Shown: positions 41,406 through 60,513 of the stretch, one piece after another | Numbering within the stretch: the stretch's first letter is position 1 | Layout of the letters: every line of letters starts with the position of its first letter | Assembly (NCBI GenBank): GCA_026125795.1 | Contig: JAHCKM010000004.1 | Span: 558,001-622,000, forward strand | From: Burkholderiaceae bacterium | GTDB taxonomy: Bacteria > Pseudomonadota > Gammaproteobacteria > Burkholderiales > Burkholderiaceae_C | Direction of reading: 5' to 3' | Length of the DNA stretch: 64,000 nt | Position numbers and translations under genes: made by a program | Notes under the pieces: model-generated | What the model was told of the DNA's origin: nothing | What the model saw: only the letters and a program-made list of their open reading frames with translations | The model's database searches: none

Positions 41406-42501
41406 ACGCCAACGCCGCGAGCGCTGCCGAGCCGAGCGCGGCATGCACGGCAACGACACCCGTCACGCCGAAGCGCTCCACGGCCAAACCGAAGACGAGG
41501 GTCAGAACCGCGTAGCCGCCTGCGGCACGCAGCGGCGACGTGCCTCGTTGGCCGCGACGCGCCGGCGCCCACAGCTGTCCGCCCCAGGCCAGACCCCACG
41601 CCGCACCGTGGGTGAGCGCAAGGCCCAGCAAGTCGTGCGGCGCCGGTGCCCACAGCGCGATCGCGGCGCCGAGCGCCAGCAACACCGCGCACACGCTCGC
41701 CAAGCGTCGCACGGACCACGTGCCGATCGACGCGCGCAGCAGCCACACCGGGCCGAACATCGCGGCAAGGTGCAGCAGCACCATCGCTTCGGCGGGCACC
41801 GATTGCGCGCGGCACCACGCGGCCATCCACGGCAGCGCCGCCATCATCGGCAGCATGGCCAGGCCGGCGAGCAAGGTGGGCCACTGCAGCGAGTCGCGCC
41901 ACGCGCCCGCTGGCCATGCGGGCAACGAGCAATCGAAGAGGCCGGCGCGGCAACCCGGCGTGCGCTGCGAGGCCGCATCGCGCTGCAAGGCGACCAGCAC
42001 GATCGCGATGAGCACGACGAAGACACCGAGCCGCAGCGAGAGCGCGGTCCCGTCGCCGACGTCACCGAGCGCCAGCCCGGCCCACAGCGCGCCGACGCCT
42101 GCCGCACCGATCGGCGGTGCCGGTGCCACGTGCTGGGCGAGGCGCAACCCGCGCACCACACCGGAGGCCAGCGCGGTCAGCGCGGCCCAGCCGAGCAGCG
42201 CGACCCACAGCGCCGCGAGGCCGCCACCATGCGCCGTGCTCCACAGCGCAAATGCTGTGATCAGCGCGGTGACGATCAGCGACGCTGCGCGCGCCGGTGC
42301 GTGCAACGCGCCGCTGGTGGCCACGGTCGCCGCGGCGCCGAGTGCGAGCAGCCACACCGCCACCATCGCAAAACCGCTCGCGACACCGGGCGCCAACGCC
42401 ATTGCAAAGCTGCCGATGCCGACCCAGCCGGCGATCAGCAAGGCCCAGGCGCAAGTGCGCGCCGCGTTCAGGCGCCGGGGCGAGCGCAATGGCGCGTTCA
42501 C
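41311..42501 (-). CDS. Polytopic membrane protein, unassigned (possible MFS-like)
   Basis: A 396-residue alanine/leucine-rich protein with about eleven predicted helices (for example CAWALLIAGWVGIGSFAMAL at the start and LTLVFGLAVERFGVTGVVAV near the end). No family signature was recognised. The overall pattern, with GVVRGLRL between helices, resembles a 12-helix transporter. GTG 42501 overlaps the stop of the MobA-like gene, placing it last in the CO-dehydrogenase-type operon. A 95-base antisense overlap with the amidase gene means the C-terminus should be treated with care. Confidence 0.65.
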   Translation of the reverse strand: MNAPLRSPRRLNAARTCAWALLIAGWVGIGSFAMALAPGVASGFAMVAVWLLALGAAATVATSGALHAPARAASLIVTALITAFALWSTAHGGGLAALWVALLGWAALTALASGVVRGLRLAQHVAPAPPIGAAGVGALWAGLALGDVGDGTALSLRLGVFVVLIAIVLVALQRDAASQRTPGCRAGLFDCSLPAWPAGAWRDSLQWPTLLAGLAMLPMMAALPWMAAWCRAQSVPAEAMVLLHLAAMFGPVWLLRASIGTWSVRRLASVCAVLLALGAAIALWAPAPHDLLGLALTHGAAWGLAWGGQLWAPARRGQRGTSPLRAAGGYAVLTLVFGLAVERFGVTGVVAVHAALGSAALAALAFTASARAFAAASSARTPAPPAAHPDHRAGGR

Positions 42502-43190
42502 GGGAACGCCTCGGTGGCGAACGCGGCCGGCCACAGCAGCCTGTGACCGGTGCTGGCCGTGAAACGCGCCACGTCATCCGGCGTGTCGATATCGACGCGA
42601 TAACGCCGGTTGTCGGTGTCGAACCAGCGCACGCGCTCGGGATGTGCGGCGCGCCATTTGCGACACGCGGCATCCGATGCACCGGCCAGCCACTCGTCGC
42701 GCAACGCGGCGTCGAAGATCACCGGGTTGCCGGGCAGCGCCGCGCCGTCGACGCTGACGCGCGGCACCACCATCGACGCGCTCCCGCGCTGCTTGAACGC
42801 GCCGATCAAGGCGACGATGTCGGCCTCACCGATCAATGGCTGGTCGGCCAAGCTGACGATCACCGCGTCGAGCCGTGGCGACAGCGCCTGCAGTCCGAGG
42901 CGCACCGACGTGTGCTGGCCTTGATCCGGGTCCGGGTTGCGCACGATCGTGATCGGGAACGGCGCAACCGCGGGCTCGATCGCATCGGCATGGTGGCCGA
43001 GCACGACCACCAGCTCGTCGACGCCGGCACCCGACAGCGCGACGCACTGGCGCACGATCAGCGGCACGCCGCCGAGCTCGAGCAGCGCCTTCGGCCGGTG
43101 GCCCAGGCGCGATCCCGCGCCGGCGGCGAGCAGCACCGCACCGATCGTCGTGCGGCTGTACAGGCCGTTGGCTTTGAGGAGGCAGCCCAT
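42498..43190 (-). CDS. MobA-like nucleotidyltransferase, probable molybdenum cofactor cytidylyltransferase
   Basis: A 230-residue glycosyltransferase-A-fold NTP transferase. The nucleotide motif is LLAAGAGSRLGHRPKALLEL, followed by DQPLI with the metal-binding aspartate and GNPVIF. This is the MocA/CoxI-like branch that adds CMP to molybdopterin for xanthine-dehydrogenase and CO-dehydrogenase enzymes. Its place in the operon right after coxE supports supply of MCD cofactor to the encoded hydroxylase. It overlaps the following membrane-protein gene. Confidence 0.86.
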   Translation of the reverse strand: MGCLLKANGLYSRTTIGAVLLAAGAGSRLGHRPKALLELGGVPLIVRQCVALSGAGVDELVVVLGHHADAIEPAVAPFPITIVRNPDPDQGQHTSVRLGLQALSPRLDAVIVSLADQPLIGEADIVALIGAFKQRGSASMVVPRVSVDGAALPGNPVIFDAALRDEWLAGASDAACRKWRAAHPERVRWFDTDNRRYRVDIDTPDDVARFTASTGHRLLWPAAFATEAFP

Positions 43191-43202: not shown

Positions 43203-44384
43203 TCAGCGCAGCGCGTCGATCACCTTGGGCATCGCATCGCGCAAGGCGCGCAGATTGCCGCCGGCAGCGAGCAGGTCAATGTGCGGCTGCGCTGCCTGCA
43301 TGCCGAGCGAGACCGGCGCAAAGCCGGGCTCGTCGAGCAGCGGATGGATCCACACCACGCAACGCGCACGCCGCTTGAGCTCGGCCAATGCGTCGGACAG
43401 GTGCTGCGGCTCGCCGGTGTCGTAGCCGTCGCTGAAGATCAGGATTGCGGTACGCGAGTGCACCAGCCGCGCCGCGTGCTCGCGGTTGAATTGCGCCAGG
43501 CTGTCGCCGATGCGCGTGCCGCCGCCGAAGCCCTGCGCGATGAAGTGCAGTTGCTCCTGCGCGCGCCACGGGTCGGGGTCGTGCAGGGCGCGCGACACCG
43601 CGGTGGTGCGTGTATGGAAGATGAAGCTGTGCACGTCGCTGCGTTCGGCGGCGAGCGCACGTGCCAGCCGCAGGTAAAAGAAGCTGGTCTGCGACATCGA
43701 GCGGCTGACGTCGATCAGCAGCACCAGACGCGGCTGCACGCGGCGCCGCTGCCGCCACGACAGGCGGATCGGCGTGCCGCCGCTGGCCACGCTGCGCCGG
43801 ATCGTCGATGGCAGGTCGAGCCGTCGGCCGCGCTGCGACGGGTGTGTGCCGCGCAGCTGGATGTGCCGGATGCGGCGCGCGAAGCGGCGCATCAGCGCCT
43901 CGATGTCGACCGTGTGCTCGCGCGCGGTCAGCGTGCGGAAGTCCGCTGAGGTGAGCGACTCTTCGCGGCTGGCCACGTGCGGCGGGCGCAGCGCGTCTTC
44001 GTCGTCGCCGTCGGCCGATGCGTCGCCGACGACGGCGCCGGCTTGTTGGCCGCTTGCCGCCGCGCGTGCCTCGCGCGCCACCGGCTGCTGCCAGCGGTTG
44101 GCCGGCAGGAACCAGGCATCGAAGAGATCATCGAAGCGCCGCCACTCGTCGGCGCGCCCGCACAGCAGGGCCTGCAGGCTCCAGCGCAGCACGTCACCCT
44201 GCAGCACGCCACTGGCCTGCGCGGTGCGCAACGTGGGCACCGCATCGGCGCCGACCGCGAAGCCGTTGGCGCGCAGGAACGCCGGAAAGCCGGCAAGGCG
44301 ATCGGCCGCACGCGTGCCGATCGCGTTTGTGTCCATGCTCAACATGCCGCCGCCGAACATTAGGAGTGGCGGCTGCATCAACAT
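43203..44384 (-). CDS. coxE: VWA-domain protein CoxE, maturation factor
   Basis: A 393-residue protein of the CoxE group. The C-terminal von Willebrand A domain has a MIDAS motif DVSRSMS (LVLLIDVSRSMSQ), GGTRIGDSL and FSDGYDTGE. In Oligotropha, CoxE works with the AAA ATPase CoxD to insert copper/sulfur into the CO dehydrogenase active site. ATG 44384 overlaps the end of the ATPase gene; 44378 is an alternative (TGATG). Confidence 0.88.
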   Translation of the reverse strand: MLMQPPLLMFGGGMLSMDTNAIGTRAADRLAGFPAFLRANGFAVGADAVPTLRTAQASGVLQGDVLRWSLQALLCGRADEWRRFDDLFDAWFLPANRWQQPVAREARAAASGQQAGAVVGDASADGDDEDALRPPHVASREESLTSADFRTLTAREHTVDIEALMRRFARRIRHIQLRGTHPSQRGRRLDLPSTIRRSVASGGTPIRLSWRQRRRVQPRLVLLIDVSRSMSQTSFFYLRLARALAAERSDVHSFIFHTRTTAVSRALHDPDPWRAQEQLHFIAQGFGGGTRIGDSLAQFNREHAARLVHSRTAILIFSDGYDTGEPQHLSDALAELKRRARCVVWIHPLLDEPGFAPVSLGMQAAQPHIDLLAAGGNLRALRDAMPKVIDALR

Positions 44385-45271
44385 GCGGCCGCCAGTCGCG
44401 CCACCACCTCGCGCGGAAACGCCGCGCGGTCCTCGCGCGTCTTGATCAGCGCGCTCAGGGTGTCGAGGATGCGCTCGGCACCGTCGACGTCGATCACCGA
44501 CACGTTCAGTCGCAGCAGAGCGGCCGCCCAGTCGAGCGTTTCGGCGATGCCGGGCTTCTTCTGCAGATCGATGCGTCGCACCGCCTGCACGAAGGCCACG
44601 ATCTGCTGCGCCAGCGCCGGCGCCACGTCGGGCGCCTTCTTGTGCACGATCGCCAGCTCCTTGTCGTGGTCGGGGTAGTCGATGTACTGGTACAGGCAGC
44701 GCCGGCGCAGCGCGTCGGACAGCTCGCGCGTGCCGTTGGAGGTGATCACCACCATCGGCCGATGCGTCGCGCGCACGGTGCCCAACTCCGGGATCGAGAG
44801 TTGCCAGTCCGACAGGAGCTCCAGCAGGTAGGCCTCGAAGGCTTCGTCGGCGCGGTCGATCTCGTCGATCAGCAGCACCGGCGCGGCGTCGCCGCTGATT
44901 GCCTCCAGCAGCGGGCGCTTGAGCAGATAGCGCTCGGAAAAGATGTCCTGTTCTTTCTGCTGCAGGCCGCGCTCGTCGTGCTCGAGCAGCTTGATCGCCA
45001 GCAGCTGGCGCTGGTAGTTCCACTCGTACATCGCCGCGTGCGCGTCGAGCCCTTCGTAGCACTGCAGGCGGATCAACCGCGTGCGGCGCACCGCGGCCAG
45101 CACCTTGGCCACCTCGGTCTTGCCGACCCCGGCGTCGCCTTCCAGCAGCAGCGGGCGCTGCAGGTCGTGCATCAGCAGCAGCGCCGCCGCCAGCGACGGC
45201 TCGGCGATGTAGCCGGCCTGGGCCAGGTCGCGCTGCAACGCAGCGAGCTCGTCGCTGCGCGCTGACTTCAT
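44378..45271 (-). CDS. coxD: MoxR-type AAA+ ATPase CoxD
   Basis: A 297-residue AAA+ ATPase: Walker A EGDAGVGKTEVAK, Walker B VLLIDEIDRAD, sensor region VITSNGTRELSDALRRRC with the arginine finger. CoxD is required for assembling the [CuSMoO2] centre in studied CO oxidisers. The ATG 45271 overlaps coxG by four bases; the end overlaps coxE. A homologue is in the second cluster at 58390. Confidence 0.92.
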   Translation of the reverse strand: MKSARSDELAALQRDLAQAGYIAEPSLAAALLLMHDLQRPLLLEGDAGVGKTEVAKVLAAVRRTRLIRLQCYEGLDAHAAMYEWNYQRQLLAIKLLEHDERGLQQKEQDIFSERYLLKRPLLEAISGDAAPVLLIDEIDRADEAFEAYLLELLSDWQLSIPELGTVRATHRPMVVITSNGTRELSDALRRRCLYQYIDYPDHDKELAIVHKKAPDVAPALAQQIVAFVQAVRRIDLQKKPGIAETLDWAAALLRLNVSVIDVDGAERILDTLSALIKTREDRAAFPREVVARLAAAC

Positions 45272-45870
45272 GCTCTCCTGCCGAACAACGATCCGAGCCA
45301 GCCTTTCAGCACGGCCCACAACAACGCCAGACCGTTCAACGGCTTCGCCTCGGCGACGGGTGGTGGCGTGGCCGGCGCACTGCCCGCGACAGCCGGCGCA
45401 GCGGCAGTCGCCTGCATCGCCTGCACCCGGGCGGCGAAGTTGGCCGCGAACTGGCCCAGTATCTGATCGGTCACCGGCCCCATGAAGCGCTGGCCGAACG
45501 TTGCGGCCTTGCCGCTCACCGAGACATCGCTGGTGCCGATCAGATTGCACGACGCCGCGTCGACCGCATCGACGCGTGCCGTCAGGTCCATCGTCGCGCC
45601 CGAGCCGCCGGCCGAGTCGGTGCCCTTGGCCAGCAGCTGCAACGTGCGCGCCGCGGCATCGAGGCGCTTGACCTCGATGTCGCCGCGGAACGACATGTTG
45701 GCCGGCCCGAGCTTGAGGGCGACCGTGCCTTTGTAGTGTGTGTCGTCGATGCGTTCGGTCACCTTCGCGCCGGGCATGCAGGCGGCCACGCCCTCGATGT
45801 CCTGCAGCAATGCCCACGCGACGTCGGCCGACGCCGGCATCGGGAACGTCTTTTCGAGTTGAACCTTCAT
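45268..45870 (-). CDS. coxG: CoxG-like SRPBCC-domain protein
   Basis: A 200-residue protein of the START/SRPBCC fold (MPASADVAWALLQDIEGVAACMPGAK is the family start). After a proline/alanine linker the C-terminus is a hydrophobic segment (LNGLALLWAVLKGWLGSLFG) that would attach it to the membrane. CoxG recruits CO dehydrogenase to the inner face of the cytoplasmic membrane in Oligotropha. It follows coxL by nine bases. Confidence 0.9.
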   Translation of the reverse strand: MKVQLEKTFPMPASADVAWALLQDIEGVAACMPGAKVTERIDDTHYKGTVALKLGPANMSFRGDIEVKRLDAAARTLQLLAKGTDSAGGSGATMDLTARVDAVDAASCNLIGTSDVSVSGKAATFGQRFMGPVTDQILGQFAANFAARVQAMQATAAAPAVAGSAPATPPPVAEAKPLNGLALLWAVLKGWLGSLFGRRA

Positions 45871-45879
45871 CGTGTGCGG

Positions 45880-48294
<2,415 letters not shown>

Positions 48295-48327
48295 GGCGTG
48301 TCTCCGTGTGTGCGTCGCTGAGGGGAT

Positions 48328-48822
48328 TCAGGCCGTGGCGGCTTGCGCTGCGGCGAGCTTCCTGGCCGCCGACTGCACGGCCTTCACGATGTTCTGGTAG
48401 CCGGTGCAGCGGCACAGGTTGCCGGACAGCCCGTAGCGGATCTGTTGTTCGCTCGGGTTCGGGTTCTCCTTCAGCAACCGGTAGGCGCGCACCAGCATGC
48501 CCGGCGTGCAGTAGCCGCATTGCAGCCCGTGCTCCTCGTGGAACGCCTGCTGGATCGCGTGCAGCACGCCGCCTTGCTCCAAGCCCTCGACGGTGAGCAC
48601 CTCGGCGCCATCACACTGCACCGCCAGCATCGTGCAGGCCTTGACCGACATGCCGTCGACGTCGACCGTGCAGGCGCCGCAGTGCGAGGTCTCGCAGCCG
48701 ATGTGCGGTCCGGTGTGCGCCAGGCGCTCGCGCAGTGTGTGGATCAAGAGCTCGCGCGAGGGCACCGTCAAGGCGACGGACTTGCCGTTGAGCCGGAACG
48801 AGATCGTGTGGGTGTTCGACAT
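48328..48822 (-). CDS. coxS: CO-dehydrogenase small subunit, 2x[2Fe-2S]
   Basis: A 164-residue electron-transfer subunit. The plant-type N-terminal [2Fe-2S] site uses C43, C48, C51 and C63 ([11 protein letters not shown] and KACTML). The second cluster is in QCGYCTPGM and GNLCRCTGY. It passes electrons from the molybdenum site of CoxL to FAD in CoxM. It lies 18 bases after coxM in the form I order. Confidence 0.93.
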
Positions 48823-48840
48823 GGATCGTTTCCTTTCCCG

Positions 48841-49707
48841 TCAGGCCTTGGCGCGCGACCGCGCGCTCAGCAGTGCGCGGCGCGCCATCTCGCCGGCCAT
48901 CGCGGTCTTGTAGTCGGCGTCGCCACGCAGGCACACGCCGGGCGAGCACGCTGCGGTGACCAGGCGTACGGCTTCGGCGAGCGAGGCGTCATCGAGGGGC
49001 TTGCCGGCCAGGTAGCCCTCGGCCTGGTTGCACTTGAGCGGCGTCGGGCCGGCATTGGTCAAGGCAATCGACACACGCGCCACGGTGCTGCCCTTCATCT
49101 GCAGCAGCACGGCGGCGGCCGCGGTGGCGAAGTCGCCGGTCTTGCGTTTGAGCTTGGTGTACGACCAGCCGGTGCCCGCGGCCGGCACCGGGATGCGGAT
49201 CTGCGTCAGGATCTCGTCGGGTGCGGCGCGTGTCTCGTACAGGCCGACGAAATAGCCGTCGGCCTTGACGACACGCTCGCCCTTCGGACCGGTGAGCACG
49301 AACGACGCGTCGAGCGCGAGCATCAGCGCCGGATGGTCGTTGGCCGGATCGCCGTGGCAGATGTCGCCACCGATCGTGCCGCGGTAGCGCACCTGCGGGT
49401 CGGCGATCTGGGCCGCGCCCTCGGCGAGCAGCGGCAGCTTGTCGGCGATCAACGATGAATCGAGCAGCTCGTGCTCGGTGGTCATCGCGCCGATGCGGAT
49501 TTCGTCGCCGGCCTGGCGAATGCCTTTCAGGTCAGGGATGCGGCCCAGGTCGATCAGCGCACCCGGCGTGGCGAAGCGCAGCTTCATCATCGGCAGCAGG
49601 CTGTGGCCGCCGGCCAGCAGCTTGGCATCGGGCCCGAGCGAGCCGAGCAGTTGCACCGCGTCGGCGACCGAGCGCGGCGCGTGGTAGTCAAAACCGGCTG
49701 GAATCAT
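48841..49707 (-). CDS. coxM: CO-dehydrogenase medium (FAD) subunit
   Basis: A 288-residue FAD-binding subunit. FAD motifs: AGGHSLLPMMKLR and TIGGDICHGDP, plus IRIGAMTTEHELL. Length and sequence match CoxM. ATG 49707 has GGAG upstream. It opens the hydroxylase operon, 242 bases downstream of the CO-sensor gene. In form I clusters M is first, as here. Confidence 0.93.
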   Translation of the reverse strand: MIPAGFDYHAPRSVADAVQLLGSLGPDAKLLAGGHSLLPMMKLRFATPGALIDLGRIPDLKGIRQAGDEIRIGAMTTEHELLDSSLIADKLPLLAEGAAQIADPQVRYRGTIGGDICHGDPANDHPALMLALDASFVLTGPKGERVVKADGYFVGLYETRAAPDEILTQIRIPVPAAGTGWSYTKLKRKTGDFATAAAAVLLQMKGSTVARVSIALTNAGPTPLKCNQAEGYLAGKPLDDASLAEAVRLVTAACSPGVCLRGDADYKTAMAGEMARRALLSARSRAKA

Positions 49708-49949
49708 CGTCAGGTCTCCTCGTCGCAGATCACGCTCGACAGCAGCGCTGCCACCTTCACCGCGCCGCGGCGCTGCGGGCGCACACGTTAGACCGGCCCC
49801 GCGCGCCGCGGCGGCCGCGCTGCACGAACCGCGCCGCGGCCGCCATGAAGCGCGGTGGCGAGCGCATGAGCCGTACCTTGCGCCTCGCGCGGGGCGAGCG
49901 ATTGCGGGAAAACCCGCGCCGCCAGCGGCGCGGGCGGCGCACCGTCGAA
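49708..49949. other. rcoM-coxM intergenic region with overlapping hairpins
   Basis: A 242-base gap without a supportable gene. Next to the rcoM stop are two perfect stems that share bases: CGCGCCGC/GCGGCGCG (49915-49922, 49925-49932) and GCGGG-AAAA-CCCGC (49904-49917). A further stem CTCGC/GCGAG lies beyond. Forming one of the first two blocks the other. The promoter and RcoM site for coxMSL should be here; no motif is certain. Confidence 0.5.
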
Positions 49950-50705
49950 TCAGCGTTCGGCGGCGGCCTCGGCGATGCCCAGACGTTGGAGCAGGCGCGG
50001 CACGCTGGTGCGTGCCACCGGCAGCGCGCGCTCGTCGCCCTGCAGCTTGAGCGACACCCGGCCGTCGTCGCGCACGATCTGTTCGGCGAAGTCGAGATTG
50101 GCCACGCAGCTGCGGTGGATGCGCAGGAACACGTTGCTGTCGAGCCGGCCTTCGAGATCGCCGATCGCCAGGTTGCAGAAGCTCGAGCCCTGCGCGGTGT
50201 GCACCCAGGTGTAGTGGCCCTCGGCGCGGATGTAGCGCACGGTCGACGCATCGACCAGCACGATGCGGTTGGCCGCCACGGTCGGGATCTTCAGCAGCTG
50301 GCGTTTCACGTCGGGGCGCTGAACGCCGGGCTCGTGGTGCATCACCGCATCGGTGATGTCGTAGAACACCAGCGTGTGGCCCACGGCCTCGCCGCGCTCG
50401 TCGGACATCTTGGTCACCTTGACCAGCAGCACGCGCTCCGGGATGTTGATGATCATCGTCATCGGCGGCGGGTTGCTGACCGGGCATTCGGCCTGGTCGA
50501 TCAGGAACTTCACCTTGGGCTGCGAGCGCTCCGGATGAAACGACAGCACCACCTTCTGGAACGGCTGCTTGTCTTCCACCGGCAGCACGCGGCGCGCGAA
50601 GCTGTTCATCGCCACGACCTTCATCTCGCGGTCGAGTTGCACCAGGCCGACGTCGCTGCGTTCCAGCAGGTACAACGGACTGCCCATGCTCACGCGTGCA
50701 TCCAC
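49950..50705 (-). CDS. rcoM: RcoM-type CO-sensing transcription factor (heme PAS + LytTR)
   Basis: A 251-residue single-component regulator. The N-terminal PAS domain (about 10-120) matches RcoM of Burkholderia xenovorans: heme ligands H57 (FHPERS), C74 (ECPVSNPPP) and M84 (MTMIINIPER) line up with H74, C94 and M104, with a three-residue shorter loop between the first two. FYDITDAV closes the domain. The C-terminal LytTR DNA-binding domain has RYIRAEGHYTWVHT and FLRIHRSCVANLDF. It lies directly upstream of coxM on the same strand, so CO-induced activation of the operon is the expected role. The start is GTG 50705 with GGGAGG upstream; ATG 50687 is an alternative. Confidence 0.9.
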   Translation of the reverse strand: MDARVSMGSPLYLLERSDVGLVQLDREMKVVAMNSFARRVLPVEDKQPFQKVVLSFHPERSQPKVKFLIDQAECPVSNPPPMTMIINIPERVLLVKVTKMSDERGEAVGHTLVFYDITDAVMHHEPGVQRPDVKRQLLKIPTVAANRIVLVDASTVRYIRAEGHYTWVHTAQGSSFCNLAIGDLEGRLDSNVFLRIHRSCVANLDFAEQIVRDDGRVSLKLQGDERALPVARTSVPRLLQRLGIAEAAAER

Positions 50706-50812
50706 GATTCAGGCCCTCCCGGCAAGGCGTCGAGCGTGGATTCAAGCATCAATGCGCCGCGCGCGCATCGGGCCGATGCCGAGGTGCGCCCGCCGCGATA
50801 GAGTTGCCCCAC

Positions 50813-52234
50813 ATGGCACTCAAGGACACGCGCGGCAACCTGCTCGGCACCGATTCGGCGCCGGCGCGCGACGCCGCCGAGACGGCACTGTGGCGCATGA
50901 TGTCGTTCTACGACCCGCCGATCGACGACCTCGACCGCGCTGTTCGCGAGGATCCGCACTGGGCGCTGCCGCACGTGATGAAGGCGGGTTTCCTGCTCAG
51001 CCTGACCGAGCCCTCGATGCGCTCCGAGGCGCGTGGCCATCTCGAGCGCGCGCAAGTGCTGCTCGCCACGGCGCCCGCACGCGAGCGCATGCACCACGAG
51101 GCCACCACGCGCGTGCTGCACGGCCGCTGGCACGATGCCTGCGCGTTGTGGGACCAATGGCTGCTCGAGCACCCGCGTGACGCGCTGGCGCTGCTATGGG
51201 CGCACCTGTGGGATTTCTACCGCGGCGATGCGATCAACCTGCGCGCGCGTCCGGCACGCGCGCTGCCGGAGTGGGACGAGGCCGACCCGCTGTACCCGCA
51301 CGTGCTGGCACTGCACGCGTTCGGCCTGGAGGAGAACAACCTGCAGGTGCAGGCCGAGGAGGCGGGCCGGCGGGCGCTGGCGCTCGATCCGCGTTCGCCG
51401 TGGGCGATCCATGCGGTGGCCCACGTGATGGAGATGCAGGGCCGCTTCGACGACGGCGCCGCGTGGCTGCGCCAGCACCAGCGCCAGTGGGCCGAAGGCA
51501 ACGGCTACGCCTGCCATCTGTGGTGGCACCTGGGGCTGTTTCGCCTCGAGGGCCTCGACGACATCGGCGTGCTGCGCCTGGTCGACGCGCATCTGGCCGG
51601 CGACGCGTTGCAGGTGACGCTGCAGCGCGTCGATGCGGCGGCCATGTTGTGGCGCCTGCACCTGCTCGGCGTCGACGTGCGGGAGCGTTGTGCTGCGCTG
51701 GTGGCGCAGTGGGGTCGCGTCGGCGCCGGGCCGCCCCAAGCCGGCGGCTCCCCCTCGGGGGGACGCGAGCGCAGCGAGCAAGGGGGCAACGAGCTCGACG
51801 ACAGCGCCGGCTACTACGCGTTCAACGACGTGCACGCGCTGCTGGCGATGCTGGCGGCCGACGATGGCGCGCGCGCCGAGCACTGGGTGGCGCGCTGTGC
51901 GGCGCGTGCGCTGGCTGCAAACGATGCGCCGCACAGCAACCACGCGATGGCACGCGACGTCGGCGCGCCGCTGATGCGCGCGCTGATGTGTTTTGCGCGC
52001 GGCGAGCATGCGGCGGCGGCACAGGCACTTTATGCCGTGCGCGCCAAGGCACAGCGTTTTGGCGGCAGCCACGCGCAGCGTGACCTGGTTGACCAGACGC
52101 TGCTGGCCGCAGCCGCCGCCGAACCGGCGGCGCGCGCGCTCGGCCGCGCGGTGCTCAACGAGCGACGCAGCGCCAAACCGGTCACTCCGTTGACCCGCCG
52201 CTGGGCCGATCGGCTGGGCGTGGCGCTGGCTTGA
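50813..52234 (+). CDS. Tetratricopeptide-repeat protein of the TTC38 type, with an in-frame repeat
   Basis: A 473-residue helical-repeat protein resembling TTC38. Pairs of helices run throughout, for example FGLEENNLQVQAEEAGRRAL and HAVAHVMEMQGRFDDGAAWL, the latter typical of the family. Residues about 305-326 (GPPQAGGSPSGGRERSEQGG) are the translation of a 62-base GC-rich repeat inserted without breaking the frame; this loop should be surface-exposed. There is no signal peptide. It is divergent from rcoM across 107 bases. Function is unknown. Confidence 0.82.
   Translation: MALKDTRGNLLGTDSAPARDAAETALWRMMSFYDPPIDDLDRAVREDPHWALPHVMKAGFLLSLTEPSMRSEARGHLERAQVLLATAPARERMHHEATTRVLHGRWHDACALWDQWLLEHPRDALALLWAHLWDFYRGDAINLRARPARALPEWDEADPLYPHVLALHAFGLEENNLQVQAEEAGRRALALDPRSPWAIHAVAHVMEMQGRFDDGAAWLRQHQRQWAEGNGYACHLWWHLGLFRLEGLDDIGVLRLVDAHLAGDALQVTLQRVDAAAMLWRLHLLGVDVRERCAALVAQWGRVGAGPPQAGGSPSGGRERSEQGGNELDDSAGYYAFNDVHALLAMLAADDGARAEHWVARCAARALAANDAPHSNHAMARDVGAPLMRALMCFARGEHAAAAQALYAVRAKAQRFGGSHAQRDLVDQTLLAAAAAEPAARALGRAVLNERRSAKPVTPLTRRWADRLGVALA
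51725..51786. repeat. Family-1 structured repeat, copy A, inside the TTC38-like gene
   Basis: A 62-base element reading GCCGGGCCGCCCCAAGCC at one end, core CCCCCTCGGGGGG, and CGCGAGCGCAGCGAGC near the other end. It matches copy B in nearly every outer position and copy C in length. It is read in frame within the coding sequence. Confidence 0.72.
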
Positions 52235-53335: not shown

Positions 53336-54340
53336 TCAGGTCGCGCAGCCCGCTTCGACGCTCGCGACCGCGCCGGTGGCCACCGGCGCCGGAATGCGAT
53401 AGCCGTAGCGCACGGCGGTGAGCTCGGCCAGGATGCCCACCGCGATCTCCGGCGGCGTGCGCGCGCCGTTCTTGAGCCCCACCGGGCCGTGCAGACGGTC
53501 GAACTCGGCCTCGGTGATGCCGAAGTGTTCGATCAGCCTGTTTTTCCGCTTGGCCTGGTTGGCGCGCGAGCCGATCGCGCCCACGTAGAACGCCGGGCTC
53601 CTGAGCGCTTCCATCAGCGCGAGGTCGTCGAGCTTGGGATCGTGCGTCAACGCGATGATCGCGGTATGGCCGTCGACCTTGAGCTCGGTCAGCAGGTCAT
53701 CCGGCATCTGGCGCGACAGCGTGGCGCCCTCGATGTGGAACCCGGTGGCGTACTCCTCGCGCGGGTCGCAGACGATCACCTCGTAGTCGAGCGCCTTGGC
53801 CATCTGGGCCAGGTATTGCGTCATCTGGCCAGCGCCGATCAGCACCAGCCGCCAGCGCGGGCCGTGGTGGGTGGTCAGCGCGGTCTCGGTGAGCTCCAGC
53901 TCGTCGGTGTCGCCGGCCGCTTCGAGCACGACCTCCCCGCTGGCGATGGTCAGCACGCGCCGCACCCTTTCACCCTTGGACAGCCGCTCCAGCAGCTCGC
54001 CGATGCGCGTGCGTGGCAGCACCGGCTCGAGCACCAGCTCAATCAGGCCGCCGCAGGGCAGGCCAAAACGGTGCGCCGCGTCGGCGTCTATCCCGTAGCG
54101 CACCACCTGAGGCACCCCGCGGGTCAGCACGCCCTCGCGCGCCTTGTCGATCAGGTCGTCCTCGATGCAGCCGCCCGACACCGAGCCGGTCACCAGGCCG
54201 TCGTCGCGGATGGCCACCACCGAGCCCGGCGGGCGGGGCGCCGAGCCCCATGTGCGCGTGATCGTGCCGAGCACGACACGGCGGCCATCGGTGCACCACT
54301 GGGACACCTGACGCAGCACTTGCAGATCCACGTTGTCCAT
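53336..54340 (-). CDS. xdhC: XdhC/CoxF-family molybdenum cofactor sulfuration factor
   Basis: A 334-residue protein of the XdhC/CoxF family that binds MCD cofactor and assists its sulfuration before insertion into the hydroxylase. The N-terminal part has APRPPGSVVAIRDDG and GSVSGGCIEDDL with the functional cysteine; the C-terminal Rossmann part has LVLIGAGQMTQYLAQMA and YVGAIGSRANQAKR, plus GLKNGARTPPEIAVGI. ATG 54340 starts MDNVDLQVLRQV; longer frames are shadow. It is divergent from the form II cluster, and no other XdhC gene occurs in the window, so it may serve both hydroxylases. Confidence 0.92.
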   Translation of the reverse strand: MDNVDLQVLRQVSQWCTDGRRVVLGTITRTWGSAPRPPGSVVAIRDDGLVTGSVSGGCIEDDLIDKAREGVLTRGVPQVVRYGIDADAAHRFGLPCGGLIELVLEPVLPRTRIGELLERLSKGERVRRVLTIASGEVVLEAAGDTDELELTETALTTHHGPRWRLVLIGAGQMTQYLAQMAKALDYEVIVCDPREEYATGFHIEGATLSRQMPDDLLTELKVDGHTAIIALTHDPKLDDLALMEALRSPAFYVGAIGSRANQAKRKNRLIEHFGITEAEFDRLHGPVGLKNGARTPPEIAVGILAELTAVRYGYRIPAPVATGAVASVEAGCAT

Positions 54341-54608
54341 CGAGCTTGAACCTCCAGTTCGGACCGGTCCGGTCAGCCATTGTGCGCGAGCGAGACGACG
54401 CGCGCTGGCACGCGATCGCCGGCGCTCCACGCCGGCGGCCTTGTTGCGCCTTGGAACAGCTTGGGCCGCTCGGCTCCTGGGTTGGCGCGGCGCATCAGGG
54501 TTAACCAGCCGGTGCGTCCATTCGGTGTGCGACCTACCATGAAAGTTCCTGCCTGCGCTGGCGCCGTGCCACGCGCGCGCATCCCCAAGGCCAAACCCAG
54601 GAGACACC
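54341..54608. promoter_or_regulatory. Divergent control region between xdhC and the form II cluster
   Basis: A 268-base gap with no supportable gene. AGGAG at its right end serves the small-subunit gene. A GC-rich stem GCCGGCG...CGCCGGC lies around 54418-54442. No clear promoter pair could be fixed. Confidence 0.4.
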
Positions 54609-55079
54609 ATGGGAATCCCCCTCACGCTCACCGTCAACGGGGCGTCGGTGACCCGCGAAGTCGAGCCGAGCACCCTGTTGGGCCGGTTCCTCCGCGAAAC
54701 GCTGCGCCTGACCGGCACTCACATCGGCTGTGACACCACGCAGTGCGGCGCCTGCACGGTGCACGTGAACGGGCGCGCGGTGAAGAGCTGCACCATGCTG
54801 GCCGTGCAGGCCGCCGGCGCCGAGGTCACGACGATCGAGGGCCTGGCCGCCAAGGACGGCACGCTGCACCCCATGCAGGCGGCGTTCCGCGACTGCCATG
54901 GCCTGCAGTGCGGTTTCTGCACCCCGGGCATGGTCATGAGCGCGGTGGACCTGGTGAAGAACCACAACTGTTCCACAGAAGAACAGATACGCGCCGGGCT
55001 GGACGGCAACCTGTGCCGCTGCACGGGCTACCACAACATCGTCAAGGCCGTGGCGCAAGGCGCCGCGGCCATGAAGTGA
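54609..55079 (+). CDS. Molybdenum hydroxylase small subunit, 2x[2Fe-2S] (form II cluster)
   Basis: A 156-residue CoxS-like subunit. First cluster: C41, C46, C49 ([11 protein letters not shown]) and the cysteine in KSCTML. Second cluster: QCGFCTPGM and [13 protein letters not shown] lies five bases before the ATG. It is the first gene of an S-L-M set, the order typical of form II CO-dehydrogenase homologues. Confidence 0.93.
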
Positions 55080-55095
55080 AGAAAGGGGGACCGAG

Positions 55096-57453
55096 ATGAA
55101 CGCACCCCAAGCCGGATTCATCGGCCAGAGCGTCAAGCGGCGCGAGGACGCGCGCTTCCTGACCGGCCGCGGCCAGTACACCGACGACATCACGCTGGAA
55201 GGCCAGACCTACGGCGAGTTCCTGCGCAGCCCGCACGCGCATGCGCGCATCAAGAAGCTCGACACCGCGGCCGCCGCCAAGGCGCCCGGTGTGCTGGGCA
55301 TCTTCACCGGCGAGCATTTCAAGCAGGTGGGTGGCCTGCCGTGCGGCTGGCTGATCAACAGCCTCGACGGCACGCCGATGAAAGAGCCGCGTCACCCGGT
55401 GCTGGCCGACGGCAAGGTGCGCTACGTGGGCGACCGCGTCGCGCTGGTCGTGGCCGAGACGCGCGAGCAGGCCGAGGCGGCCGTGCAGCTGATCGAGGTC
55501 GACTACGAGGAGCTGCCGGCGGTGGTCGATGCCGCCAAGGCGGCGCAGGCGGGCAGCGCGGTCCACGACGAGGCCCCCAACAACACCTGCTACCACTGGG
55601 GCATCGGCGACAAGGACGGCGTGGATGCCGCGCTGAAGGGCGCCGCGCACGTCACGACCTTGAGCTTTCGCAACAACCGGCTGATCCCCAACGCGATCGA
55701 GCCGCGCGCGGCCAACGCGTCGTATGACGCCAACGCCGACAGCTACACGCTGTACGTGGCCAACCAGAACCCGCACGTCGAGCGGCTGCTGATGTGCGCC
55801 TTCGTGCTCGGCATCCCCGAGCACAAGATGCGCGTGGTGGCGCCCGACGTCGGCGGCGGCTTCGGCTCGAAGATCTTCCTCTATGGCGAGGAGACCGCGC
55901 TGGTGTTTGCCAGCAAGGTGATCAGGCGGCCGATCAAGTGGGCGGCGTCGCGCTCGGAGGCTTTCCTTTCCGATGCGCATGGCCGCGACCACATCACCAC
56001 CGCCAAGCTCGGCCTCGACAAGGATGGCAAGTTCCTGGCGCTAAAGGTCGAGACCACGGCCAACCTCGGCGCCTACCTGTCGACCTTCTCGTCGGCGGTG
56101 CCCACCATCCTCTACGCGACGCTGCTCGCCGGCCAGTACAAGACGCCGAAGATCTGGTGCGAGGTGACCGCGATGTTCACCAACACCACGCCGATCGATG
56201 CCTATCGCGGCGCCGGGCGCCCGGAGGCCACCTATGTGGTGGAGCGCATGGTGGAGACCGCGGCCTCCGAGCTGCGCATCGACCCGGCCGAGATCCGGCG
56301 GCGCAATTTCATCACCGAGTTCCCGTACGCGACGCCCGTGGGCCTGACCTATGACACCGGCGACTACGCCGCCACGCTGAACAAGGCGCTCGAACTCGGC
56401 GACGTGGCCAACTTCGCCAAGCGCAAGGCCGCCACCGAGGCCAAGGGCCTGAAACGCGGCATCGGCTACTCGGCCTACATCGAGGCCTGCGGCATCGCGC
56501 CGTCGAGCGTGGCCGGCGCACTGGGCGCGCGCGCCGGCCTGTTCGAGGCCGGCGAGGTGCGGGTGCACCCGACCGGCAAGGTGACGATCTTCACCGGCAG
56601 CCACAGCCACGGCCAGGGCCACGAGACCACGTTTGCGCAGGTGGTGGCCGACCGGCTCGGCATCGCGATGGATGACGTGAGCATCGAGCACGGCGACACC
56701 GGCAAGATCCTGTTCGGCATGGGCACCTACGGCAGCCGCTCACTGGCGGTGGGTGGCACGGCGATCGTGAAGGCCGTGGACAAGATCATCGCCAAGGGCA
56801 AGAAGATCGCGGCGCACCTGATGGAGGCCGCCGACACCGACGTGGTGTTCGAAGGCGGCGCGTTCAAGGTGGCGGGCACCGACAAGAGCGTGCCGTTCGC
56901 GCAGGTGGCGCTCACCGCCTACGTGCCGCACAACTTCCCGCACGACAAGCTGGAGCCCGGCCTGAACGAGAACGCGTTCTACGATCCGAGCAACTTCACC
57001 TATCCGGCCGGCACCTACATCTGCGAGGTGGAGGTCGACCCGGCCACCGGCGCGGTCAAGATCGACCGCATGACCGCGTGCGACGACTTCGGCAACGTGA
57101 TCAACCCGATGATCGTCGAAGGCCAGGTGCACGGCGGGCTGGCGCAGGGACTTGGCCAGGCGCTGCTCGAGCACGGCGCGTACGACGAGGACACTGGCCA
57201 GCTGCTCACCGGCAGCTACATGGATTACGCGATGCCGCGCGCCGACGACTTTCCCACTTTCAACGTGGAGACGGTCAAGGGCACGCCCTGCACGCACAAT
57301 CCGCTCGGCGTCAAGGGCTGCGGAGAGGCCGGCGCGATCGGCTCGCCGCCGGCGCTGATCAACGCCATCTGCAACGCGCTGGGCGTCAAGGACGTGCCGA
57401 TGCCGGCATCGCCGTACAACGTGTGGAAGGCGGCGCAGTCGCTGGGCCGCTAA
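55096..57453 (+). CDS. Molybdenum hydroxylase large subunit, form II type (AYRGAGR)
   Basis: A 785-residue Mo-MCD subunit. The active-site loop is AYRGAGR (residues 369-375), the form II signature that lacks the copper-binding cysteine of true CO dehydrogenase. Other motifs: [25 protein letters not shown] and the catalytic glutamate in [12 protein letters not shown]. Form II enzymes are of mixed or unknown specificity, and this one is better called a xanthine-dehydrogenase-family hydroxylase than a CO dehydrogenase. It lies 16 bases after the small-subunit gene. Confidence 0.92.
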
Positions 57454-57471
57454 GCCGAACAGGAGAACACC

Positions 57472-58254
57472 ATGCAAGCATTCAACTACGCCAAGCCGTC
57501 GTCGCTGGCCGATGCGGGGCGCGCCGCCGGCGGCGCCGACGCCAAGCTGCTGGCCGGCGGCCAATCGCTGCTCGCAGCGATGAAGCTGGGCCTCGCGGCG
57601 CCCGCGGCGCTGGTCGATCTCGGCGGCCTGAAGGAGCTGCAAGGCATCAGCGTGTCGGGCGGCGTCGTCAAGATCGGCGCGATGACCACGCACGCCGCGG
57701 TTGCGGCGTCGAAGGAGGTGCAGCAGGCGATTCCGGCGCTGGCCGCTCTCGCGGCCGGCATCGGCGACCGCCAGGTGCGCAACCGCGGCACCATCGGCGG
57801 CAGCCTGGCCAACAACGACCCGGCGGCCGACTATCCCGCCGCGGTGTTGGGCCTGGGCGCGACGATCCACACCGACAAGCGCACCATCGCAGCCGACGAC
57901 TTCTTCAAGGGCCTGTACCAGACCGCGCTCAACGACGGCGAGATCATCACCGCGGTGAGTTTCCCGGTGCCGGAGAAGGCCGGCTGGCAGAAGTTCAAGC
58001 AGCCGGCGTCGCGTTTTGCGCTGGTGGGCGTGTTCGTCAGCAAGGGCAAGGGCGGGGTGCGGGTCGCGGTGACCGGTGCCGGCCCGGGCGTGTTCCGCGC
58101 CACGGCGCTGGAGCAAAAGCTGAGCAGCAGCTGGTCGGGCGCGGCGTGCGACGGCGTAAAGATCGATTCCAATGGCCTGAACAGCGACCTGCACGGCTCT
58201 GCCGAATACCGTGCAGCGCTGATTCCCGTGCTGGCGAAACGGGCCGTCGGCTGA
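57472..58254 (+). CDS. Molybdenum hydroxylase FAD subunit (form II cluster)
   Basis: A 260-residue CoxM-like FAD subunit with AGGQSLLAAMKLGLA and TIGGSLANNDPAADYP as FAD-binding motifs. It is about 28 residues shorter than the coxM in the other cluster. AGGAG precedes the ATG. It is followed by a three-hairpin repeat before the AAA+ gene. Confidence 0.92.
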   Translation: MQAFNYAKPSSLADAGRAAGGADAKLLAGGQSLLAAMKLGLAAPAALVDLGGLKELQGISVSGGVVKIGAMTTHAAVAASKEVQQAIPALAALAAGIGDRQVRNRGTIGGSLANNDPAADYPAAVLGLGATIHTDKRTIAADDFFKGLYQTALNDGEIITAVSFPVPEKAGWQKFKQPASRFALVGVFVSKGKGGVRVAVTGAGPGVFRATALEQKLSSSWSGAACDGVKIDSNGLNSDLHGSAEYRAALIPVLAKRAVG

Positions 58255-58283
58255 AGCGCTCTATCCCGCCTGTGACACACTGA

Positions 58284-58352
58284 CAACGGCCGAAAGGCCG
58301 TTGCGTCGAAGGCTGACTTCGCGCAGCGAAGTCAAGGCGCGCTTGCGCGCCT
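58284..58352. repeat. Three-hairpin element (family 2), copy H
   Basis: Three hairpins in a row: CAACGGCC-GAAA-GGCCGTTG (58284-58303), TGACTTCGC-GCA-GCGAAGTCA (58314-58334) and AGGCGCGC-TT-GCGCGCCT (58335-58352). Order, linker (CGTCGAAGGC) and spacing match the copy after tyrB at 20775, while stem bases differ in compensating pairs. It separates the FAD-subunit gene from the AAA+ gene and may lower expression of the accessory genes or protect the upstream mRNA. Confidence 0.68.
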
Positions 58353-58389
58353 GCCGAAGACAAAACGCCGCACCGAAGTGAGTCGCCTT

Positions 58390-59307
58390 ATGACGACGAC
58401 CGACCTCCCGACCAGCATCGACGAGCTGCAACAGCGTTTGCTCGCGCTCGACTACGTGGCCGACCGCCAACTCGCCACCGCGGTGTTCCTGGCGCTGAAG
58501 CTGCAGCGCCCGCTGTTCCTCGAAGGCGAGCCGGGCACCGGCAAGACCGAGATCGCCCGCACACTGAGCGTGATGCTGGAGCGCGAGCTGATCCGCCTGC
58601 AGTGTTACGAGGGCCTCGACCTCGCAGGTGCCGCGTACGAATGGAACTACGGCCGCCAGATGCTCGAAATCCGCCTGGCCGAAGGCACGGGCGTCAATCG
58701 CGATGCGCTGGCCGGTGAGCTGTTTTCGAAGAAGTTCCTGATCCAGCGCGCGCTGCTGCAGGCGATCGACCCGGCGCGCAGCGTGCCGCCGGTGCTCTTG
58801 ATCGACGAGTTGGACCGCGCCGACGAGCCGTTCGAGGCCTTCCTGCTCGAGGTGCTGTCGGAGTTCCAGATCACCATCCCCGAGTTCGGCACCGTCAAGG
58901 CCACCACGCCGCCGATCGTCGTGCTGACGTCGAACCGCACGCGCGAGATCCACGACGCGGTGAAACGGCGTTGCCTGTACCACTGGGTCGGCTTTCCCGA
59001 CGCCGCGCGCGAGCTGCAGGTGCTGCAGCGGCGGGTGCCGGGCGTTTCGCAGCAGCTGGCACAGCAGATCGTCGGCTTCGTGCAGCGCATGCGCCAGGTC
59101 GAGCTGTACAAGCAGCCCGGCATCGCCGAGACCATCGAATGGGCGCGCGCGCTGATGCAGCTCGACGCGCTGGTGCTCGACCCCGCGGTGATCCAGGACA
59201 CGCTGGGCGTGCTGCTGAAGTACCAGGACGACATCGCGCGCATGCAGGGCGGTGAAGCGGCGCGGCTGTTGGAAGAGGTGCGCAACGCGTCGCGTGCGGC
59301 GGTGTGA
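58390..59307 (+). CDS. MoxR-type AAA+ ATPase, CoxD-like (form II cluster)
   Basis: A 305-residue AAA+ ATPase: Walker A EGEPGTGKTEIAR, Walker B VLLIDELDRAD, sensor VVLTSNRTREIHDAVKRRC. It resembles the coxD product at 44378 along its full length (shared LIRLQCYEGLD, AYEWNY-type and PGIAETIEWARAL segments). ATG 58390 is used; GTG 58378 is possible. It is expected to act in active-site maturation with the VWA protein encoded next. Confidence 0.9.
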   Translation: MTTTDLPTSIDELQQRLLALDYVADRQLATAVFLALKLQRPLFLEGEPGTGKTEIARTLSVMLERELIRLQCYEGLDLAGAAYEWNYGRQMLEIRLAEGTGVNRDALAGELFSKKFLIQRALLQAIDPARSVPPVLLIDELDRADEPFEAFLLEVLSEFQITIPEFGTVKATTPPIVVLTSNRTREIHDAVKRRCLYHWVGFPDAARELQVLQRRVPGVSQQLAQQIVGFVQRMRQVELYKQPGIAETIEWARALMQLDALVLDPAVIQDTLGVLLKYQDDIARMQGGEAARLLEEVRNASRAAV

Positions 59308-59310
59308 GCC

Positions 59311-60513
59311 ATGCTCGTCGCGCCGCGCCAGTCCCCGGGCCACCTGGCCGAGAACGTCATGCACTTCGCGCGCGTGCTGCGCAGCGCGGGTATCTCGGTG
59401 GGCACCGATCGCATCCAACTCACGCTGCAGGCGTTGGGCATCGCCGGATTCGACAGCCGCAACGATTTTCATGCGGTGCTGAGCACCTGCATGCTCGACC
59501 GCATCGAGCACAAGGAGCTGTTCGACCAGGCGTTCGAGCTGTTCTGGCGCGATCCTGATCTGGAAGGCCGCATGCGCGCGATGCTGCTGCCCAAGGTGCG
59601 CGCGCAGGCTGCGCTGACACCCGAACAGCGCGAGAACCGCCGCCTCGGCGACGCGCTGTTCCCGAACCCGCGGCCCGATGCCCCGCAGCCGCAGCCCGAC
59701 GAGCAGATCGATCTCGATGCCGCCTTCACCGTCAGCGACACCGAGGTGCTGCGCAAGGCCGACTTCGACACCATGAGCGCCGACGAGTGGCGCGCCGCGC
59801 GCCGCGCGCTGGCGATGATGCGCTGGGTGTTCGAGCCCTTGCCGACGCGCCGCGCTTCGGTGTCGCCGCGCGCCGGCCGCATCGACTGGCGGGCCACGCT
59901 GCAGACGATGGCGCGTCACGGCGGCGAGCTGGGCACGATGCGCTGGCGCCGGCCGCGGCCGTTGCCGGCGCCGATGGTGGTGCTGGCCGACATCTCCGGC
60001 TCGATGAGCCGCTATTCGCGCATGCTGCTGCACTTTGCGCATGCGCTCGGCCATGCCGAGGCGCGTGTCGAGAGCTTCGTGTTCGGTACACGCCTCACGC
60101 GCACCACGCGGTTGCTCAAGAGCCGAGATCCCGATGTGGCCGTGTCGCAGGTGGTCAAGGCGGTGGAAGATTGGTCCGGCGGCACGCGCATTACCCACTC
60201 GCTGCACGAGTTCAACCAGCGTTGGGCGCGGCGCGCGCTGAGCAGCCGCACCACCGTGCTGCTGATCAGCGACGGCCTGGAGCACGGCGACACCCAGGCG
60301 CTGTCGCACGAGATGGAGCGCCTGGCCAAGAGCTGCCGGCGGCTGATCTGGCTCAACCCGCTGCTGCGTTTCGAAAAGTTCCAGCCGCGTGCTGCCGGCA
60401 TCCGCGCGATGCTGCCGCATGTGGATCGATTCTTGCCGGTGCACAACCTGGAAAGCCTGGAGCACCTGGTGCGGTTGCTGGGCAGCCCCGACAAGCCCGA
60501 ACGCCTGCATTGA
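59311..60513 (+). CDS. VWA-domain protein, CoxE-like (form II cluster)
   Basis: A 400-residue CoxE-like protein. The VWA domain (from about residue 220) has MIDAS residues DISGSMS, GGTRITHSL and ISDGLEHGD. It starts three bases after the AAA+ gene. It probably forms a maturation pair with that ATPase. It is divergent in its N-terminal half from the CoxE-like protein at 43203. Confidence 0.9.
   Translation: MLVAPRQSPGHLAENVMHFARVLRSAGISVGTDRIQLTLQALGIAGFDSRNDFHAVLSTCMLDRIEHKELFDQAFELFWRDPDLEGRMRAMLLPKVRAQAALTPEQRENRRLGDALFPNPRPDAPQPQPDEQIDLDAAFTVSDTEVLRKADFDTMSADEWRAARRALAMMRWVFEPLPTRRASVSPRAGRIDWRATLQTMARHGGELGTMRWRRPRPLPAPMVVLADISGSMSRYSRMLLHFAHALGHAEARVESFVFGTRLTRTTRLLKSRDPDVAVSQVVKAVEDWSGGTRITHSLHEFNQRWARRALSSRTTVLLISDGLEHGDTQALSHEMERLAKSCRRLIWLNPLLRFEKFQPRAAGIRAMLPHVDRFLPVHNLESLEHLVRLLGSPDKPERLH

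Follow-up and report, generated by a model that had tools for sequence, protein, structure and literature searches.

We analysed a 64,000-nucleotide stretch (hereafter, the window) of contig JAHCKM010000004.1 from a Burkholderiaceae bacterium, which carries on its minus strand a cox operon predicted to encode a form I molybdenum-copper (Mo-Cu) carbon monoxide (CO) dehydrogenase and, directly upstream, a gene for the CO-sensing regulator RcoM. The active-site motif of the catalytic large subunit, CoxL, is AYRCSLR, and its Leu is one of seven replacements that occur together throughout a single branch of form I proteins. By its sequence relationships, the window CoxL sits within the form I clade as a variant and not as a typical member, and the locus probably encodes a functional CO dehydrogenase that has a repacked pocket and is switched on by RcoM. 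This all-or-none remodelling turns a known motif into a testable question.

A CoxL variant inside the form I clade

Against TIGR02416, the NCBIfam model for the large subunit of aerobic CO dehydrogenase, the window CoxL scored 1340 bits (cut-off 991), and its best matches among solved enzymes were 1FFU and 1N5W, which we take to be the enzymes of Hydrogenophaga pseudoflava and Afipia/Oligotropha carboxidovorans, respectively. Its motif contains Cys384 and Leu386, and Glu757 is also kept; the strict criterion for form I is AYxCSFR, from which AYRCSLR departs at the Leu.

Relatives were gathered from the best 80 of 90 loci from named genomes, from nine plasmid regions, and from genomes of the family, order, genus, phylum and class; among matches from the window's own family, loci from 30 of 38 were read for the motif. 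Once 10 short rows and additional identical ones had been removed, 135 distinct full-length CoxL sequences remained, with rows L005 and L092 being the window itself: 17 with the Leu motif (Leu sequences), 108 with Phe at this position (Phe sequences) and 10 form II-like. The Phe sequences comprise 98 with AYRCSFR, nine with SYRCSFR and one with AYACSFR, and include Pseudomonadota, Chloroflexota, one actinobacterium, one deinococcus and one haloarchaeon. Because 17 distinct full-length proteins share AYRCSLR, its occurrence by chance is excluded. Sites are hereafter numbered as in A. carboxidovorans, set by Cys388, unless window numbering is stated.

A tree of 126 sequences (9 short and 6 identical rows removed first) was built by a quick method under LG+G4 with nine diagnostic columns omitted; long branches were flagged among its form II-like and non-proteobacterial members. 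All 17 Leu sequences fell inside the 116-member form I group, apart from the 10 form II-like sequences, and formed one clade (Shimodaira-Hasegawa-like approximate likelihood ratio test, SH-aLRT, 100; stem 0.22) within a mostly beta- and gammaproteobacterial part of form I. The Cu-binding Cys and the catalytic Glu are kept in 17/17 of these proteins, in which Q240, R387, C388, D684 and E763 are likewise identical.

Seven sites of the catalytic subunit change together

Seven alignment columns split the Leu and Phe sequences fully (17/17 vs 108/108): P265G, A346V, P348A, F390L, M505L, L565A and Y568W, which in window numbering are G261, V342, A344, L386, L498, A558 and W561. None of the 125 Leu and Phe sequences carried only part of this set. 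Two further sites, T560K and Y633H, split them almost as cleanly, with T in 106 and Y in 107 of the 108 Phe sequences. As read from alignments, the solved CO dehydrogenases 1FFU, 1N5W and 8UEM have the residue of the Phe sequences at each of the seven positions. Of 160 columns that are invariant among Phe sequences, 144 are the same in all Leu sequences. That the Leu motif is an isolated point change is ruled out, as every Leu sequence carries the seven changes and 0/108 Phe sequences carry any.

For each form I clade of 5 to 60 members (n = 49, drawn from the 116 form I sequences), we counted the sites that are invariant in all other form I sequences but fixed differently inside the clade. 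The Leu clade has seven such sites, the next clade has two, and the remainder have none or one. Only one such site occurs in a Chloroflexota clade, although its stem is longer (0.257, compared to 0.224 for the Leu clade) and it has 80 near-private changes. The same comparison of Leu and Phe loci was made for five companion proteins, with L018 and L148, two loci that give identical CoxL, both included among the Leu loci:

CoxM: 16 Leu and 99 Phe loci, 22 invariant columns, 0 switched sites
CoxS: 18 Leu and 103 Phe loci, 38 invariant columns, 0 switched sites
CoxD: 16 Leu and 81 Phe loci, 57 invariant columns, 0 switched sites
CoxE: 10 Leu and 32 Phe loci, 19 invariant columns, 0 switched sites
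CoxG: 16 Leu and 61 Phe loci, 20 invariant columns, 0 switched sites

Across these proteins, 0/156 Phe-invariant columns are switched, compared to 7/160 in CoxL; the change is therefore specific to the catalytic subunit. When the window CoxL was compared pairwise with six Leu relatives, the ratio of nonsynonymous to synonymous substitution rates (dN/dS) ranged from 0.12 to 0.21, which indicates purifying selection.

An earlier reading of this DNA (the original prediction) had noted the M-S-L gene order with coxG, coxD and coxE behind it, C384, E757 and AYRCSLR, all of which were confirmed from the frames, domains and motif. Its proposal of a distinct form I branch is borne out by the phylogeny against form I and form II-like sequences. 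The Phe-to-Leu change to which it drew attention is indeed present, not as a stand-alone substitution but as one of the seven linked changes.

Predicted placement of the changed sites

Alignment with characterised relatives suggests that several of the seven sites lie within or beside the substrate pocket. Residue F390 faces the Cu ion, according to the available portion of PMC6334162; searches of the literature on the pocket and channel residues led to this and a second modelling paper (PMC7862525). Site 568, Trp561 in the window protein, aligns in HMMER with Tyr545 of quinoline oxidoreductase 1T3Q. The accessible text of PMC8305194 gives Tyr545 as the counterpart of Trp551 in Kdh of the nicotine pathway, where Trp551 holds the substrate steady and the W551A and E345A variants are inactive. 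Site 348 aligns in HMMER with 1T3Q Thr332, the register being off by one when the alignment is made through a form II protein; the same text places Thr332 in the channel and equates it with Kdh Glu345. P265 stands immediately before the aspartate of the Mo-proximal glycine loop, and M505L is the only one of the seven changes without a pocket placement.

RcoM and a putative operator upstream of coxM

The locus has the minus-strand order rcoM-coxMSLGDE-mocA, every frame being free of stops, and the order M-S-L is that of form I Mo-Cu CO dehydrogenase:

49950..50705, minus strand: rcoM, GTG start, 251 residues; CO-sensing regulator with haem PAS and LytTR domains (Pfam LytTR, E 1.5e-17; PAS_4)
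49823..49870, minus strand: putative RcoM operator; three repeats whose first six bases read YTCRTG, 21-bp (base pair) period
48841..49707, minus strand: coxM, flavin adenine dinucleotide (FAD) subunit (Pfam FAD_binding_5, CO_deh_flav_C)
48328..48822, minus strand: coxS, 2Fe-2S subunit (Pfam Fer2_2, Fer2)
45880..48294, minus strand: coxL, Mo-Cu subunit, 804 residues (TIGR02416; motif AYRCSLR)
45268..45870, minus strand: coxG (Pfam COXG)
44378..45271, minus strand: coxD, AAA+ ATPase (Pfam AAA_5, searched from 45265; start at 45271 read from the translation)
43203..44378, minus strand: coxE, VWA protein (Pfam VWA_CoxE)
42498..43190, minus strand: mocA-like nucleotidyltransferase (Pfam NTP_transf_3)

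H57, C74 and M84 of the window RcoM align with the His, Cys and Met positions of other RcoM-like proteins, the Cys being presumably a haem ligand. The His-to-Cys distance is 17 residues, three fewer than the 20 of the Paraburkholderia and Caballeronia RcoMs in the alignment. Two relatives from the Leu clade (L013 and L016) have Leu at the Met84 position with Met residues beside it. Elsewhere, the RcoM of L022 (a Chromatiaceae metagenome-assembled genome) has Tyr at the Cys position, and the match in L045 (a Nitrospirota metagenome-assembled genome) is split over two frames, the frame that was read being without the His and the Cys.

Between rcoM and coxM, 163 to 116 bases ahead of the coxM start, lie three imperfect repeats, CTCATGCG, TTCATGGC and TTCGTGCA, separated by 13-bp spacers. 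The published RcoM1 site, as given in the available part of PMC11347149, contains the repeat TTCNNGCA three times, with spacers of 12-13 bp and thus a period of 20-21. The window repeats match 14/18 specified bases of this published consensus, with 0/100 simple shuffles as good, and form a predicted operator. A score of at least 14/18, a threshold chosen after the window's own score of 14 was known, was found at 12/20 loci with co-directional RcoM, 4/8 with divergent RcoM and 3/34 without RcoM, the last group coming mostly from other lineages and so not forming a matched control. The pattern YTCRTG was derived from the window site itself, and the published consensus was used for the scored comparison. 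Two co-directional Leu loci, L012 and L076, fall under the threshold, although L012 still contains YTCRTG three times at a 21-bp period. Of the three RcoM-less loci that reach it, L070 has a partial rcoM match and the other two are alphaproteobacterial. At L070 (5103-5315) the match covers 77 residues while three operator-like repeats are intact, which points to a broken rcoM or an assembly error. RcoM-type repeats also occur upstream of coxM, with no full RcoM, in the alphaproteobacterial L046 and L049 and more weakly in L146; because L146 combines such repeats with an MHYT-domain gene upstream of coxM, CoxC-type regulators may use similar repeats. Positions 49600-50900 were scanned for sigma-70 promoters and for terminators, with no match. 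Immediately past the rcoM stop (about 49905-49935, minus strand) there is a GC-rich hairpin with a run of four T behind it, which went unreported in the terminator scan; that scan requires five T in eight.

Control of the window operon by RcoM is supported at the level of sequence, since an RcoM with aligned haem-ligand positions adjoins a triplet of RcoM-type repeats. The RcoM homologue with H57, C74 and M84 named in the original prediction was recovered here with its PAS and LytTR domains, and the suggestion that the enzyme is CO-induced gains from the adjoining repeat triplet. Neither these repeats (49823-49870) nor the six other linked CoxL sites had been reported in that prediction. The pairing of RcoM with the Leu motif, by comparison, did not hold as a link. 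When loci with at least 3 kb of upstream sequence were tallied (12 of 20 Leu loci and 42 of 51 Phe loci, with identical Phe rows omitted and the window not counted), RcoM was present at 6/12 Leu and 20/42 Phe loci. Coupling of the Leu motif to RcoM is thereby ruled out, and the CO sensor and the Leu motif are independent traits.

Interpretation and alternatives

We favour the reading that the locus encodes an RcoM-controlled form I Mo-Cu CO dehydrogenase of a distinct, Burkholderiales-centred branch, on whose stem at least seven replacements would have become fixed in the catalytic subunit. Of these, F390L would alter the Cu-facing residue, L565A and Y568W a loop whose aromatic residue holds substrate in relatives, A346V and P348A the channel loop, and P265G the residue before the Mo-proximal glycine loop. 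Because the enzyme retains the Cu-binding Cys and the catalytic Glu together with Gln240 and Arg387, it probably still oxidises CO, and the repacked pocket would change CO affinity, turnover or side reactions. CO would bind the RcoM haem, RcoM would bind the three repeats before coxM, and the operon would be expressed, with electrons passing to respiration and perhaps to CO2 fixation. It is a more tentative proposition, and one we would not yet back, that AYRCSLR marks a functionally new Mo-Cu branch, with a pocket rebuilt on one branch (the Cu-facing Phe lost, Trp at the position of a relative's substrate-holding Trp, the channel loop changed), a clearly different substrate range or CO kinetics, the Cu site kept, and the enzyme being its hosts' only form I enzyme.

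The replacements may instead reflect neutral drift of a lineage whose enzyme behaves as any form I CO dehydrogenase. The unchanged operon and metal ligands would fit this, as would the conservative nature of some changes (F to L, M to L), but the joint fixation of seven changes at sites that never vary among the 108 Phe sequences would not, nor would the finding of at most two such sites in 48 other clades and none in five companion proteins, and we consider drift unlikely. We regard it as highly improbable that the enzyme is impaired and en route to loss. An aromatic ring facing Cu has gone, and the available portion of PMC13203968 suggests that AYRCSLR may be less functional; on the other hand, the low dN/dS, the identical set of changes in 17/17 sequences, the retention of accessory genes and operator-like repeats, and the lack of a back-up form I gene in 9/9 genomes (see below) all speak against this, and dN/dS together with synteny argues against decay. 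Several pocket positions changing at once, a Trp at 568 as in Kdh, and the absence of RcoM from half of the testable Leu loci would suit a pocket rebuilt for another small substrate, with CO not the main one. Given the Cu-binding Cys in every Leu sequence, the cox accessory genes, and the CO sensor with operator-like repeats at the window locus, such a switch also seems improbable.

Several points weigh against the CO dehydrogenase reading that we favour. Because one of its seven sites is what drew attention to the Leu clade, the clade test is biased in its favour (its count without that site is six), and the 49 clades compared are nested and not independent. The Phe sequences lean towards Burkholderiales, with other phyla thinly sampled, and the pocket placement comes from alignment with relatives. 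To these may be added the patchy occurrence of RcoM and the remark on reduced function just cited; a search of the open-licence literature found no assay of an AYRCSLR enzyme.

Hosts, related loci and published systems

No form I copy besides the window gene was found in the host's own genome at E <= 1e-180, and none of the 9/9 Leu genomes checked had a second form I gene (next matches at most 42% identity), although drafts may miss genes; a canonical second form I copy in the host was accordingly discounted. RuBisCO is present in the host genome, so that autotrophy on CO is possible, and it occurs at the Pfam cut-off in 10/14 Leu and 14/17 Phe genomes and is thus not branch-specific. Accessory cox genes are kept at all Leu loci long enough to show them, and a mocA-like gene lies behind coxE in many related loci; the top NCBIfam match of the window's copy is TIGR03310 (112 bits, under the cut-off of 186). 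In a Leu subclade that branches more deeply, L017 and L018 are the two loci with sequence upstream; both show a mocA-coxMSLGDE-coxF-like order and lack RcoM.

The solved form I enzymes (1FFU, 1N5W) share with the window the M-S-L order (seen in OM5), the active-site Cys and Glu, Gln240 and Arg387, but differ from the window CoxL at the seven otherwise invariant sites. OM5 CoxL is 64% identical to it, and the 16-kb OM5 cox stretch has MHYT-type genes and no annotated RcoM, unlike the window. Neither the AYRCSLR motif nor the rcoM/cox/mocA layout is new as such. In the accessible text of two 2026 papers, the same motif is one of six among 707 form I CoxLs, with the comment 'may be less functional' (PMC13203968), and (A/S)YRCS(F/L)R is accepted as a form I motif (PMC13240472). 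These portions treat the motif alone and contain no description of linked sites or of a clade, and as far as our searches of the open-licence literature reach, the seven-site linkage is new. The papers searched, in the parts available, yielded nothing on the physiology of the Ramlibacter CoxL enzyme. Cupriavidus ulmosensis and Paraburkholderia terrae have rcoM with coxMSL, coxGDEF and mocA, a regulator and accessory genes as in the window, according to the available part of PMC11771112, whose criterion is AYXCSFR while the window has AYRCSLR. The Cupriavidus, Paraburkholderia and Caballeronia loci compared here have Phe-type CoxL, with RcoM on the strand opposite cox. RcoM of Paraburkholderia xenovorans LB400 has in common with the window its PAS-LytTR architecture, the His and Met ligands, and a triple direct-repeat operator (PMC9670170 and PMC11347149, available portions).

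Some form I surveys select exact AYRCSFR (PMC12996764 and PMC6784897, as far as their available text shows), and the Leu branch is consequently dropped. The branch has at least two named strains, Ramlibacter monticola KACC 19175 (L013) and Variovorax sp. dw_308 (L015). Should it oxidise CO with different kinetics, it would serve as a natural experiment on the roles of Phe390, Leu565 and Tyr568 at the Mo-Cu site; should it not oxidise CO at all, its inclusion in counts of CO oxidisers would be wrong.

A neighbouring form II operon

A form II operon lies on the plus strand at 54500-60513, about 4 kb from rcoM, placing both forms of CO dehydrogenase on one island. Its genes and an adjacent minus-strand gene are as follows:

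ending near 55079, plus strand: form II small subunit
55096-57453, plus strand: form II large subunit, motif AYRGAGR
57472-58254, plus strand: form II medium subunit
58378-59307, plus strand: coxD-like gene, identified by eye
59311-60513, plus strand: coxE-like gene, identified by eye
within 53336-54718, minus strand: XdhC-family gene

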